A stretch of DNA of 46,824 nt. Origin: Oscillatoriales cyanobacterium (GTDB lineage: Bacteria; Cyanobacteriota; Cyanobacteriia; Cyanobacteriales; Microcoleaceae). The notes under the pieces are model-generated. The model did no database searches and was not told the origin of the DNA. It saw nothing but the letters and a program-made list of their open reading frames with translations. Position numbers and translations under genes: made by a program. The stretch is from assembly GCA_004292745.1 (NCBI GenBank), contig RDXH01000013.1, positions 1 to 46,824 of the forward strand, in the 5' to 3' direction. Below, piece after piece: positions 1-11,000 of this stretch (its first letter is position 1; each line of letters opens with the position of its first letter).

Positions 1-106
1 AGGAACACTTGAGATTGCAACGACTCACAATTTTAACTACAACTGTTGTTATGGGTCGGACTTCGTAAAACTCAGTTCTCTGGGGTAGAAGCAACTCAAG
101 TGACAT
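1..106 (-). CDS. Radical SAM protein, N-terminal fragment (peptide-maturase-like), runs off left edge
   Basis: Only the first 35 codons are in the window. Translation from the ATG at 106-104 gives a short lead, then VVVKIVSRCNLKCS. This has the spacing of the first two cysteines of a radical SAM CxxxCxxC cluster; the third cysteine would lie beyond base 1. The phrase K-x-x-S-R-C-N-L-x-C close to the N-terminus is typical of SPASM-type RiPP maturases such as the FxsB and GrrM groups (family knowledge). A good ribosome site (GAAGGAAA on the minus strand, about 6 nt upstream) supports the start. The gene follows a 58-aa ORF on the same strand after 88 nt, the usual order precursor then maturase. 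It could be another radical SAM family; the missing C-terminus would decide. Confidence 0.72.
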   Translation of the reverse strand, partial: MSLELLLPQRTEFYEVRPITTVVVKIVSRCNLKCS

Positions 107-146
107 AAATTTTCCTTCAAGCTATACTGTAGAACCAAAATCATTG

Positions 147-170
147 TTGGGGAAAAGCCTTCCCAGCCAA
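147..170 (-). terminator. Small hairpin between the 58-aa ORF and the radical SAM gene (possible attenuator)
   Basis: On the minus strand a GGGAA / TTCCC stem with a 5-nt loop, extended by TTGG / CAA across a bulge, lies between the stop of the small ORF and the ribosome site of the radical SAM gene. It has no clear U tract. A leaky attenuator that makes more precursor than enzyme is common in peptide-maturation operons, but here the role is a guess from position. Confidence 0.25.
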
Positions 171-194
171 GCATCTTTTCTGTAATAATCTGAC

Positions 195-371
195 TTAATC
201 AGTAGTATGACTACTGAAATCAGACCAAGCAATAGGCTCTTTACCCATACGTTCTGCTTGAATCGCTTGAATCGCAGCTACAACTTTTGGATTAATTTTC
301 CGTAGCTGTTCCTCTTTCAAACCATTAACTGCAATTTCAGCAACAGGTTTAGAACCAAGATAAACTGTCAT
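195..371 (-). CDS. 58-aa protein, candidate precursor peptide of the radical SAM enzyme
   Basis: The ORF runs from ATG at 371-369 to TAA at 197-195, with a GAGG ribosome site at 379-382 and a 7-nt spacer. The protein starts MTVYLGSKPVAEI, continues with a charged, helix-prone middle (KEEQLRKINPKVVAAIQAIQ) and ends PIAWSDFSSHTTD. It has no transmembrane segment or cysteine. The C-terminal W-S-D and F-S-S triplets fit the aromatic-x-x pattern that triceptide (cyclophane) maturases cross-link, and F-x-S is the FxsA signature, although here it is six residues from the C-terminus rather than at the very end. A leader-plus-core reading is therefore reasonable. Placement upstream of, and co-directional with, the radical SAM gene supports this. 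It could instead be an unrelated small regulator; no homologue is recognised outright. Confidence 0.6.
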   Translation of the reverse strand: MTVYLGSKPVAEIAVNGLKEEQLRKINPKVVAAIQAIQAERMGKEPIAWSDFSSHTTD

Positions 372-411
372 TTATTTGCCTCACACATTTGATTGATTTA
401 GCATAAAAAAA

Positions 412-1818
412 ATGACATCCCCTGCCCCAATGAACCTAAAAGAAGCTTTAAACCTCGCCAATAAGATAGTCTTCGATAAAACTGGCCAACACCTAGACGA
501 CTTACAGGAAGCGGTACTCAAAGGCACTCTAGAACGTGAGACATACAAACACATAGCCAAAGACTTTGACTGTTCAGAAAGTAGTGTGAGGAAAGTGGGC
601 GCAGAATTATGGGAAATACTTTCAGAAGAGTTGGGGGAAGATGTTAGTAAATCAAATTTGCGATCGGCAATAGAGAGATTGCAAGTCTCGCTGTTCTCAT
701 CAAATGTTGCACAAGACTCTGTGCAGATTAGGAATATTAATTATTGTGGAGAAGGTAGACACCCACCAGATATACCCAACTCACACCCACCAAATCAAGA
801 AACATCTAACTCAAAACAAACCAAAACTATACATCAAGATTTAAGCGAAATGCCGGAGTTGGGTAATTTCTTCGATCGCACTTCCGAACTCCAAACCCTC
901 ACAACCTCGATTCTACAACAAAACTGCCGCCTCATCGCCATCACCGGCATCAGCGGAATCGGCAAAACATCCCTAGCAGTACAACTCGTAAAACAAATCA
1001 AACACGACTTTGAATACGCAGTTTGGTGCACCCTAGACGAATTCCCCACCATAGATAAATTTCAATCTAACCTAAGACAGTTGTTTTCCAATTCCGAAAA
1101 ACAAGATTCATCCCCAACAAACCAGAAACGCTTACCGCTAATTAAATATTTACAAAACCATCGCTGTTTAGTAGTCTTAGATGACGTTCATAACCTTTTC
1201 TGTAGCGGTGAATTAGCCGGAAAGTATAAACCAAACTACGAAGAATATCGCTCTTTATTCAAACAAATAGAAAAATTATCCCATCAAAGTTGCTTTCTGC
1301 TAGTCGGTTGGGAACCACCCAAAGAAGTTCCTCAACTCACAAGCGAAAATACTCCCATTCGTACCTTACAACTCACTGGTTTAGACACCGCAGCCGCACA
1401 GGAAATACTCAGAGATAAAGGATTAGCAGAAATCGACAACTGCGAAGCACTTATTCACCGCTACCAAGGCAATCCGTTATGGTTAAAAAGCGTGGCGACT
1501 TTGATTCAAGAGTTGGGAATCGGCGCGACTGAGTTATTAATAGATGATACCATATTGTTGCCGGAAGATTTGAAAGATGTTTTACATGAGCAGTTCGATC
1601 GCACTTCCGAACTAGAAAAACAAGTCCTCTCATTGTTGGCGACAGAAAACCAGCCAGTCAACTTCGCCAAATTGCTACAAAATGGACAAATATCATCATC
1701 AGATTTGCTAAACGCATTGCAATCTCTATCGCGGCGCTGCTCGATCGAAAAACAGGAAAGTCTTTACACTCTGTCACCTGTTCTGAAGCAGTATATCAAA
1801 ACTCGACGATCGCACTAA
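412..1818 (+). CDS. STAND NTPase: N-terminal vMAP-type helical domain plus NB-ARC ATPase
   Basis: The protein is 468 aa. Residues ~7-95 match the helical/HTH domain found at the N-terminus of cyanobacterial vWA-MoxR-associated and NB-ARC proteins (EALNLANKIVFDKTGQHL, then an IAKDFDCSESSVRKVGAELW segment). A P-loop GISGIGKTSLA lies at ~178-188 and a Walker B CLVVLDDV at ~252-259, followed by helical and winged-helix NB-ARC parts. STAND proteins are signal-sensing switches whose ATPase usually sits between an effector or adaptor and sensor repeats. This one stops after the winged helix, with no WD40 or TPR repeats and no recognisable toxic effector, so it may work with a partner. It is divergent from the small-ORF/radical-SAM pair with only 40 bp between starts; Fxs-type RiPP clusters of actinobacteria also encode an NB-ARC protein. 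ATG at 412 is used; ATG at 430 is an alternative. Confidence 0.85.
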   Translation: MTSPAPMNLKEALNLANKIVFDKTGQHLDDLQEAVLKGTLERETYKHIAKDFDCSESSVRKVGAELWEILSEELGEDVSKSNLRSAIERLQVSLFSSNVAQDSVQIRNINYCGEGRHPPDIPNSHPPNQETSNSKQTKTIHQDLSEMPELGNFFDRTSELQTLTTSILQQNCRLIAITGISGIGKTSLAVQLVKQIKHDFEYAVWCTLDEFPTIDKFQSNLRQLFSNSEKQDSSPTNQKRLPLIKYLQNHRCLVVLDDVHNLFCSGELAGKYKPNYEEYRSLFKQIEKLSHQSCFLLVGWEPPKEVPQLTSENTPIRTLQLTGLDTAAAQEILRDKGLAEIDNCEALIHRYQGNPLWLKSVATLIQELGIGATELLIDDTILLPEDLKDVLHEQFDRTSELEKQVLSLLATENQPVNFAKLLQNGQISSSDLLNALQSLSRRCSIEKQESLYTLSPVLKQYIKTRRSH

Positions 1819-2202: not shown

Positions 2203-2679
2203 ATGACCACAATAACTACAGTCACAACAGCCTCTAAACTTGCTGATTACTACATCTGGTTCGCCAATGATGTCGGCTCCTACCTCAGCAACCACAAGCT
2301 ACAAAAACTATTGTACTACGCCCAAGCATGGTATTTAGCATTTGAGGATACACCGCTGTTTGATGAAGATTTTGAAGCGTGGGTACACGGACCGACTATC
2401 CCGGCTTTATTTTACGAATACAAAGAACTATTTGACTGGAAGCCCATTCTCAAAGAAGTCGAAAAACCAGAGTTTCCCGAAGAAGTACAAGAGTTTTTAG
2501 ACGAGTTATCCGATGATTACTTCTTTCGGGATGCCTATGAGTTAGAATTGATGGTGCGACGTGAAGACCCTTGGATTAATGCTAGAGGTAATTTGCCAAA
2601 AGATGAACATTCTCATGCTATTATTACGAAGGAATCAATGAAAATTTTTTACAAAACTCGTGTCATCGAAGAAGCATAA
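2203..2679 (+). CDS. Panacea-domain (SocA-like, DUF4065) antitoxin
   Basis: The protein is 158 aa. Residues ~10-120 carry the Panacea/SocA signature: KLQKLLYYAQAWYLA, then FDEDFEAWVHGPTIPALFYEYK and a later acidic helical stretch. Panacea proteins are hyper-promiscuous antitoxins that each neutralise one of many unrelated toxins (PanAT systems); others are phage-associated or proteolytic adaptor proteins. Here the gene overlaps by 20 nt a second small gene on the same strand, the classic two-gene toxin-antitoxin arrangement. Length is normal for the family. The start is the ATG at 2203 after GAGTCGAGTTAT. Confidence 0.85.
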   Translation: MTTITTVTTASKLADYYIWFANDVGSYLSNHKLQKLLYYAQAWYLAFEDTPLFDEDFEAWVHGPTIPALFYEYKELFDWKPILKEVEKPEFPEEVQEFLDELSDDYFFRDAYELELMVRREDPWINARGNLPKDEHSHAIITKESMKIFYKTRVIEEA

Positions 2680-3103
2680 AAAAAGACAAGATACTGAGAT
2701 TCGTAGTCAACCATCTTCACCAAGGAGAGAGGTTGTCAATATCCAAATTCCCGAAGGAATTAGCTTTTCTTTAAGGTATTACCAGGATGATAAAGATAAG
2801 TTCTCCATTGGTGGTAGAGATGCTAGATACTTAGCATCTCTATTGAGACGACTGCGCGATTTGTCACAATTGAATGCTCAAGAGGTTATCAATAATCAAA
2901 GTAAAAGTCTGCGTTGTCATGGCATAGCTTGGAAAGAGACTACCGAACCTAATGGCTTTGGGATTCCCAATGAATCTGCGCTAGTAAATATGCCCTACCA
3001 GTTTCAAATTTCTGCGAATGAATACGGTCGGGTGCATGGCTTTTTTAGTGAAAATGTTTTTTATATTGTCTGGCTAGACCCAGACCACAATCTTTATAGT
3101 TGA
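2660..3103 (+). CDS. Probable toxin partner of the Panacea antitoxin, uncharacterised
   Basis: The protein is 147 aa and starts at GTG 2660, inside the end of the antitoxin gene (translational coupling). The N-terminus is lysine/arginine-rich and probably disordered (SKKHKKRQDTEIRSQ). A compact domain follows, with IPEGISFSLRYYQ, a central helical part, and a C-terminal HGFFSENVFYIVWLDPDHNLY. The closing aromatic strand followed by W-x-D-P-D-H resembles the end of small nuclease-like or RelE-like proteins, but I cannot place the fold with confidence. Toxin status is inferred from the overlap with the Panacea gene. It could instead be an accessory protein. Confidence 0.65.
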   Translation: MSSKKHKKRQDTEIRSQPSSPRREVVNIQIPEGISFSLRYYQDDKDKFSIGGRDARYLASLLRRLRDLSQLNAQEVINNQSKSLRCHGIAWKETTEPNGFGIPNESALVNMPYQFQISANEYGRVHGFFSENVFYIVWLDPDHNLYS

Positions 3104-8721: not shown

Positions 8722-9456
8722 CTATAACCATTTTTCAGTGCGGGCTAAAACTTCGGTACTTTGTTTGATGGCTACACAAATTTTTAAATTCAATTCTAGT
8801 ATATTTGATGCCGGGAATAATCTCCTGATTGGTTCAATTTCGCGGGCGGAACAACCCAACATTTCCATATAAGCTAGAGTCCATCCAATGGCTGCAATGT
8901 CAGTGATATTTCCAGTCCCTTCACAAAAGTGACAGCTAATTCCGGCTTGGGGGCCACACTCAGGACAAACCCAATTGCAGCTCGATAAATGTGGCGAATT
9001 TGTGCGAGTATTTGATGCGATTTTTAAGGCTTTAATGTGATTTTGAACTACTTGGTCAAAACTGCGAGCTTGCTTGAGGCGGTAGATGGATTTGCTGTGC
9101 GGTACCGAATATTCTGCTGGCTGTTGGGCCGCAATCATTGGTGCTGTTTGCTGTGCTATTCTATGTCGAGATTCCCCTAGATTTGCAGTTAGTTGAATGC
9201 CGTAATCCTTTAACTCTTGGCGATGCTCCTTCTGCTGAGATTCTGTCGAGGGAAAGGAGGAATTGGGATCGCCAGTGGTGAAAGATGGTTGAATGCGATC
9301 GGCTTCTGCTTGTATGGAGAGGTGATGTTCGATCGCCAGAGACCAAGTTCTTCTGTGTCGAATGTTGCCATATTTTCTGGCTTGTTCCTCAGTAATACCG
9401 ATCGCCTCCGCCTCTTGGCGCAACATATTCATGGAAGTCATAGAAAGTGATATCAT
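8722..9456 (-). CDS. Hypothetical protein with DnaJ-like CxxC zinc ribbon
   Basis: About 244 aa from ATG 9456; further in-frame ATGs at 9441 and 9432, and a TTG at 9477, are alternatives. An N-terminal helical part (LRQEAEAIGITEEQARKYGN) is followed by a polar, glutamine-rich linker. The C-terminal third has CPECGPQAGISCHFCEGTG, two CxxC pairs ending in a C-x-G-x-G similar to one DnaJ zinc-finger repeat. A helical end follows (LAYMEMLGCSAREIEPIRRL). It probably binds zinc; the function is unknown. It lies on the strand opposite to gmk and xseA and is alone in its unit. Confidence 0.75.
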   Translation of the reverse strand: MISLSMTSMNMLRQEAEAIGITEEQARKYGNIRHRRTWSLAIEHHLSIQAEADRIQPSFTTGDPNSSFPSTESQQKEHRQELKDYGIQLTANLGESRHRIAQQTAPMIAAQQPAEYSVPHSKSIYRLKQARSFDQVVQNHIKALKIASNTRTNSPHLSSCNWVCPECGPQAGISCHFCEGTGNITDIAAIGWTLAYMEMLGCSAREIEPIRRLFPASNILELNLKICVAIKQSTEVLARTEKWL

Positions 9457-10928: not shown

Positions 10929-11000
10929 ACATGATAAAGGAAATCAGACTGCCGAAAGCACAGGCTCTAGCATTGAGATATGCAAATGTCTACGGCACAC

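Follow-up and report, generated by a model that had tools for sequence, protein, structure and literature searches.

The stretch of DNA analyzed here (the window) comprises 46,824 nucleotides from an Oscillatoriales cyanobacterium (contig RDXH01000013.1 of assembly GCA_004292745.1) and is one entire contig (G000:C202). Its left end holds three genes (Table 1). On the minus strand lie the start of a SPASM radical SAM maturase gene and, upstream of it, a gene for a small precursor peptide; on the plus strand, divergent from both, lies a gene for a STAND protein with a helix-turn-helix (HTH) region, an NB-ARC domain, and a winged helix. An original prediction, made from the letters alone, had proposed here a cluster for a ribosomally synthesized and posttranslationally modified peptide (RiPP) that acts with a STAND switch. 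Judged by sequence, a triceptide-type RiPP cluster begins at the left end of the window. The radical SAM frame and ribosome site that the prediction had read at the left edge are both present, and the fragment includes CNLKCS, part of the CxxxCxxC motif. Because the window is a whole contig, the maturase gene is cut by the contig end; a search of the assembly for the remainder of the gene found only the 35 codons.

Table 1. Features at the left end of the window
Feature	Position	Strand	Remarks
SPASM radical SAM maturase, first 35 codons	2..106	-	ATG at 106; translation MSLELLLPQRTEFYEVRPITTVVVKIVSRCNLKCS; contig end truncates the gene
GAAGGA ribosome site ahead of the maturase ATG	113..118	-	Read in the sequence
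58-amino-acid precursor peptide gene	195..371	-	Copies in nine further loci
Invariant core W-x-D-F-S-S-H, residues 49-55	207..227	-	14/14 copies; residue 50 varies
Leftover of the divergent promoter region	372..429		From comparison with L022
STAND gene (HTH, NB-ARC, winged helix)	412..1818	+	Relatives share a Met start at 430
N-terminal helical HTH region of STAND	454..684	+	Weak likeness to sigma-70 region 4
NB-ARC/NACHT-type NTPase domain of STAND, residues 162-335	895..1416	+	Domain match

The identity of the peptide gene is evidenced by its relatives. A scan with a maturase profile gave ten loci, nine of them cyanobacterial and one from Micromonospora (the contigs L017, L018, and L025 duplicate L014, L015, and L016, respectively), and in all nine cyanobacterial loci one or two copies of the precursor stand immediately before the maturase gene. 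With the window included, this order holds in 10/10 cyanobacterial loci, with 14 precursor copies in total and tandem copies in 4 of the 10. The 58-amino-acid open reading frame (ORF) is therefore a real gene, as predicted, since it precedes the same radical SAM gene in nine more loci, and a spurious ORF is excluded by the core conserved in 14 copies. The W-x-D and F-x-S motifs, whose conservation beside radical SAM genes the prediction had put up for checking, are constant: W49, D51, F52, S53, S54, and H55 are identical in every copy, around a position 50 occupied by S, A, L, Q, R, or K. Such an invariant W and D on either side of a variable residue match the expectation for a three-residue ring that joins them. 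The leader-like part of the peptide is likewise well conserved. The precursor is not an FxSxx-COOH peptide, because its F sits 7 residues from the C terminus in 13 of the 14 copies (8 in one), not 5, and an F-x-S-x-x ending is absent. The window's precursor had no match up to an E value of 10 among Pfam and NCBIfam models. The gene is rare too; the protein is present in 4/59 close-kin genomes (own genome counted), and the precursor profile matches 1 of 386 genomes drawn from the phylum, which is the window's own.

Full-length relatives allow the maturase to be classified as a SPASM-type enzyme in the neighborhood of the FxsB and YhhB families. Among loci with the WxDFSSH precursor (group A), the score against the YhhB model (NF041707) was taken for two enzymes, which reach 392.1 and 396.4 bits, under the cutoff of 445; the same two reach 362 and 357 bits against FxsB (TIGR04269), under its cutoff of 370, and group A enzymes overall score 356.8 to 365.8 bits. 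The maturase sits between the two families, beneath both cutoffs. Its nearest solved structure is ChlB (PDB 9gm3), at 299 bits. Cysteines C30, C34, and C37, together with C337, C340, C346, and C368, are invariant across three orthologues. Two marks of a triceptide system were found: a radical SAM enzyme of SPASM type that has the CxxxCxxC motif as well as auxiliary cysteines, and conserved aromatic-x-x motifs (W-x-D and F-S-S) in the adjacent precursor. The two outcomes that the prediction had named as fatal to it did not occur. The left gene is no housekeeping radical SAM enzyme, its top matches being peptide maturases, and the small ORF beside it is conserved. The maturase profile at an E value of 1e-80 and TIGR04269 at 1e-50 each matched 2/386 genomes of the phylum draw, and the latter matched 8/61 of the family. 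According to PMC11002830, OscB makes Trp-to-Asn/Asp rings and MscB makes Phe-to-Ser rings. We infer that the group A maturase would form two three-residue cyclophanes, one linking Trp and Asp of W-x-D and the other Phe and Ser of F-x-S.

The gene after the maturase codes for an alpha-ketoglutarate (aKG)-HExxH peptide beta-hydroxylase (TIGR04267), for which two proteins of group A score 45.8 and 56.2 bits (cutoff, 40); an HEFFH motif is invariant in 7/7 proteins. This protein is related to ChlH of Chlorogloeopsis (8s5f; E value of 1.1e-4) and may beta-hydroxylate the core after cyclophane formation. Eight loci (L014, L018, L019, L020, L021, L022, L024, and L025) are long enough downstream for further genes to be compared. 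A 136-amino-acid protein is encoded nearby in all eight (on the opposite strand in L025), a 280-amino-acid protein in six, and an intact GT9-like glycosyltransferase in four (PF01075; E value of 4.7e-11 in L018). The GT9-like genes of L018, L020, L024, and L025 code for 321 to 326 amino acids, and L021 (12736-13071) holds only a 111-amino-acid remnant. Pfam and NCBIfam gave no assignment for the 280- and 136-amino-acid proteins; for the former, the structure model was unusable (predicted local distance difference test score of 35.8), and a 2-oxoglutarate oxygenase look was seen by eye only. A fused 757-amino-acid maturase-hydroxylase ORF in L022 proved false, as it reads over an NN assembly gap at 10964-10965. 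A second NN gap in L022, at 9018-9019, shortens the STAND gene there.

The divergent STAND gene is present as predicted, and its NB-ARC domain scores 55.5 bits (gathering cutoff, 23.5), which places the protein in the NB-ARC clade; 16/16 family members match NB-ARC at an E value of 0.01 or better. The protein falls outside the SARP/AfsR type: none of the corresponding domains (OmpR-type DNA-binding, BTA, and tetratricopeptide repeat [TPR]) is among its 12 Pfam families at an E value of 0.01, and it scores 11.9 bits against an AfsR model with a cutoff of 1430. In the proteins scanned, namely, the window protein and some neighbors, no vWA, MoxR, or VMAP domain was found, and no Pfam hit listed for the window protein supports the label "vMAP-type" that the prediction had attached to it. 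No sensor domain was detected by Pfam or with a low-confidence structure model whose fold search covered mainly residues 315 to 468.

Such a gene is a conserved neighbor of the peptide cluster. In group A, a divergent STAND gene is found in the window and in 7/9 other loci; L014 and L020 are untestable, as each begins within 200 bp of the precursor on its upstream side. Group B clusters (G008, G017, G018, and G028) have an FxsB enzyme above the cutoff (427.7 to 431.5 bits), a different candidate precursor of 71 to 74 amino acids, and a separate downstream protein with HExxH (by eye, in G008), and a divergent STAND gene is present in all four genomes. Altogether, a divergent HTH–NB-ARC gene accompanies 12 of the 14 testable cyanobacterial FxsB/YhhB-like loci (16 were examined); no gene of this type was seen at the Micromonospora locus. 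The STAND gene seems to travel with the cluster, because the genes beyond it differ between loci. Nevertheless, it is not a dedicated orthologous partner of the peptide. In-cluster STANDs occupy at least three separate places of a 36-row tree, among paralogues from elsewhere in the genomes, and the STAND of the G057 cluster is 36% identical to that of the window. The peptide cluster would thus have been joined to STANDs of this kind on three or more occasions.

Some observations on candidate precursors belong here as well. Candidates of a second family, 71 to 81 amino acids long, lie beside above-cutoff FxsB enzymes (L069:11452-11667, L073:8039-8263, and L076:1030-1275), some with F/H/Y-S-S motifs, and likely form a separate triceptide group. 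In G374 (L070:10105-10311), a 68-amino-acid ORF ending in YDRMHHRHNRS precedes a fused maturase-hydroxylase; by eye, we take it to resemble a Yhh-type precursor.

The STAND genes belong to a family with many paralogues per genome (21 to 48 matches in each of six genomes), most of which face a divergent neighbor, here called cargo. Such a neighbor was found for 33/38 and 46/51 paralogues in two sets (79/89 in total) versus 33/98 control genes, the latter still including any STAND genes. The first set began as 40 regions, of which one lacked a STAND start and one an upstream gene; the second began as 52 regions with 51 results, and 45 of its 46 divergent regions were long enough for the period test described below. 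Gene calls were mechanical ORFs of at least 80 amino acids (38-set) or 70 amino acids (51-set). One recurrent cargo type, starting like M..YEIVKD and carrying PRWTL or PKWTL, lies beside STANDs in four genomes (L095, L133, L154, and L160). Because the family consists of divergent genes with many different neighbors, the STAND is no dedicated peptide partner, and in place of the predicted peptide acting together with a STAND switch, a switch that controls a peptide operon is the better reading.

What the STAND genes do share lies in their promoters. Tandem direct repeats were seen on aligning the group A promoters and printing those of groups A and B, and a period test then scored the best three-copy direct repeat relative to shuffles for each spacing between 8 and 23. 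Across 41 STAND promoters (45 before the removal of four near-identical rows), the mean z score was 2.00 at 10 bp, 0.72 at 20 bp, and -0.24 to 0.22 elsewhere, compared with 0.11 at 10 bp in 24 control divergent regions. This discovery set is not independent, because the period was first spotted by eye in groups A and B. In an independent set of 45 regions, the mean z score was again high at 10 bp (2.01), with 0.85 at 20, 0.74 at 9, and 0.39 at 11, versus 0.00 at 10 bp for 120 non-STAND intergenic regions (P = 3.6e-11); z scores of at least 2 at 10 bp occurred in 23/45 STAND regions and 3/120 controls. The period is kept in 37 regions whose HTHs are less than 60% identical (P = 4.8e-10) and in a nonredundant set when G and C letters alone are counted (P = 2.5e-5), although the tests take regions as independent and the similarity-thinned set is those 37 regions only. 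Examples, each with at least three copies, are CCAACATTTT, TTTTCGTACA, and TTCCTATTTT. By a stricter score, 52/90 regions have a strong array, and that of the G057 cluster is weak; since arrays were searched for 3 to 8 or 3 to 7 units only, the unit numbers are bounded accordingly.

The repeats themselves are paralogue specific, and the period alone is common: a search for 7- to 10-mers shared across paralogue promoters yielded no single common operator. When strong arrays with unrelated cargo are compared in pairs (1298 in all), HTH identity correlates with repeat similarity (rho of 0.27; 0/2000 permutations), and mean repeat similarity rises from 0.41 at HTH identities below 35% to 0.77 above 75%. 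Moreover, group A-like repeats recur with related STANDs that face other neighbors (L118, L138, and L142), as do group B-like repeats (L099, L136, and L163); therefore, STAND plus array looks like a constant module in front of which the cargo is exchanged.

The position of the arrays was also mapped. A TATAAT-like box ends exactly 29 nucleotides before the STAND ATG in 36/100 promoters and at 28 to 30 nucleotides in 54 (near-identical promoters being kept in this count), compared with a highest count of 7 at any distance in 50 shuffled sets. In 41 promoters with the box at 29, ten-base self-identity is 0.58 to 0.61 from -70 to -51, 0.45 from -50 to -41, and 0.23 to 0.38 in other bins; from this peak, it follows that the array adjoins the -10 box and covers the place of the -35 element. 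Some arrays lie farther from the box. On the cargo side, further copies of the repeat are enriched (mean z score of 1.0, standard error of 0.22, n = 48 of 52); seven of these copies agree in at least 9 of 10 letters, and five of the seven share an offset of 24 to 25 bases. These copies weakly support control of the cargo as well.

The window's own promoter departs from this picture. The window is 97.4 to 97.8% identical to L022, but approximately 145 bp (L022 9500-9643) are absent between window positions 403 and 404. This stretch is present in both L014 and L022, and in L022 it contains the array of 10-bp repeats along with the -10 box of the STAND gene. The gap between precursor and STAND genes is short in the window because these bases are missing. 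The interval that separates the two genes contains no array, and a search of the window for the L022 repeat, allowing up to 3 mismatches, found none. With array and promoter absent, the window copy is probably silent or misassembled.

Farther right in the window, two overlapping genes at 2203-3103 (plus strand) resemble a SocA/Panacea antitoxin (PF13274; 54.6 bits) and a MAG6450-family protein (30.8 bits, under the cutoff of 40). The pair, which looks like a toxin-antitoxin pair, also adjoins the STAND gene in L022. Directly behind the window's STAND gene lie two copies of a dispersed repeat of approximately 60 bp (1857-1916), for which the matches listed include dozens of copies in the same genome at 72 to 89% identity.

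We consider it more probable than its rivals, and somewhat better than an even chance, that the triceptide-type RiPP operon lies beside, and probably under, a local NB-ARC switch that is docked at a promoter, resembles nucleotide-binding leucine-rich repeat receptors (NLRs), and has swappable cargo, of which the peptide cluster is one. In the proposed mechanism, the NB-ARC domain would be switched on by nucleotide and a further signal; activated protomers would line up head to tail on the array, one HTH per helical turn; the docked HTHs would replace sigma region 4 at the -35 position; and the array-bound STAND would set transcription of its own gene and of the divergent cargo. DNA binding, nucleoside triphosphate (NTP)-gated head-to-tail assembly, activation rather than repression, and cargo control are all predicted from sequence features. 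Two loci weigh against the link between STAND and cluster. No STAND lies in the approximately 1 kb upstream of the candidate precursor in G446, whose FxsB enzyme scores 411.4 bits, or at the fused maturase-hydroxylase of G374 (480.6 bits). Linkage between array and gene could account for part of the correlation between HTH and repeat.

The most serious competitor, which we nevertheless regard as unlikely, is a conflict system in which the STAND would be an immune-type sensor or effector, the modified peptide a toxin or amplifying signal, and the repeats only autoregulatory. Kaur et al. (2020) proposed such roles for actinobacterial FxSxx peptides with AP-ATPases (PMC7159879), and the C-terminal part of the low-confidence STAND model aligns with plant NLRs. 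However, the same STAND family faces many unrelated genes, the domains expected of VMAP systems were not found in the proteins scanned, and PADLOC matches are weak, with the STANDs reaching no more than 22.7 bits. The arrays might instead be phased A-tracts that bend promoter DNA independently of STAND binding, and 41/52 strong arrays do contain at least two A/T runs of four or more. We think this rather improbable, given that the other 11 have no such runs, that the period survives G/C-only matching, that the repeat sequence tracks the HTH, and that no such signal was found in the 120 non-STAND intergenic regions.

Two further alternatives seem very improbable. With dozens of family matches per genome and with G374 and G446 lacking a STAND, the gene could stand beside the peptide cluster by chance, but it is adjacent and divergent in 12 of the 14 loci open to testing, the STANDs involved come from at least three lineages, and the outer flanks differ, all of which argues otherwise. 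Equally, the 58-amino-acid protein could be a small protein that assists or regulates the radical SAM enzyme, considering that its leader-like part is also well conserved and that its precursor role is deduced from sequence. Such a protein does not account for a C-terminal W-x-D-F-S-S-H that is invariant around a variable residue, for tandem copies in 4/10 loci, or for a maturase of the cyclophane group.

The most familiar NB-ARC proteins are wheel-assembling immune receptors; in filamentous cyanobacteria, NB-ARC proteins are abundant and mostly without explanation. Extending the promoter-docked switch to these organisms, we tentatively suggest, at a little less than even confidence, that they possess a large NLR-like family (HTH–NB-ARC–winged helix) that polymerizes on private arrays and commits the cell to one swappable cargo, which may be as small as one secreted protein or as large as an entire cross-linked-peptide operon. 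The loop could be closed by the matured peptide, or by whatever it encounters, as the signal. If the arrays are docking sites, every STAND has a readable DNA address and a likely target, testable promoter by promoter, and a mining rule follows: the cargo of an HTH–NB-ARC gene is the gene on the far side of the 10-bp array. If true, this would be a further route, beside AfsR and MalT, for STAND control of transcription. For natural products, the locus offers a precursor that is rare and well conserved and carries two ring motifs side by side, together with a candidate expression switch.

Parts of this arrangement have precedents. The best literature matches listed, mostly outside subscription journals, and the available portions of PMC8195603 and PMC11119718 contain no description of the cyanobacterial cluster, the divergent HTH–NB-ARC genes, or their repeats; PMC11119718 does note that NB-ARC occurs in cyanobacterial sigma factors as an accessory domain. 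Known triceptide systems (OscB, MscB, YhhB, and ChlB with ChlH) share with group A the SPASM radical SAM enzyme, the small precursor, the aromatic-x-x motifs, and the aKG-HExxH hydroxylase. Here, however, W-x-D and F-x-S are adjacent in one invariant core of a precursor that has no Pfam or NCBIfam match, the HExxH enzyme is a separate protein, and GT9-like and unassigned proteins occur in part of the loci.

The prediction had also suggested a cyanobacterial relative of the actinobacterial Fxs clusters and had thought the combination of peptide, radical SAM enzyme, and NTPase unfamiliar. The kinship holds for the SPASM maturase related to FxsB, the HExxH hydroxylase, and the nearby NB-ARC protein, and fails for the FxSxx-COOH end and for group A scores, which lie below the FxsB and YhhB cutoffs. 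Unlike its actinobacterial NB-ARC/TPR counterpart, the STAND here is short, carries an HTH, is divergent, belongs to a multicargo family, and has no TPR hit (24 bits to the FxSxx_TPR model; cutoff, 300). The pairing itself is already published for actinobacteria: as described by Kaur et al. (2020; PMC7159879), FxSxx peptides, radical SAM/SPASM enzymes, a zincin, and an AP-ATPase occur together. The VMAP ternary conflict systems of the same source likewise combine an AP-ATPase with FxSxx peptide processing, and differ in the vWA, MoxR, and VMAP domains, which were not found in the proteins scanned.

Among transcriptional regulators, MalT-type STAND activators (PMC4381067) offer an NTP-switched multimer that serves as a transcription factor; here, by comparison, no sensor repeats were found, the HTH is N-terminal, and the neighbor is local and divergent. 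AfsR and other SARP regulators fuse a DNA-binding domain to a STAND/NOD module and, according to PMC10936776, bind 11-bp direct repeats, a helical turn apart, that lie over the -35 element beside the -10 box. The cyanobacterial arrays differ in having 10-bp repeats in at least three units instead of two, and the STANDs differ in having no TPR hit and a sigma-region-4-like HTH in place of the SARP domain, in tens of paralogues with their own repeats, and in a main site that is their own promoter.

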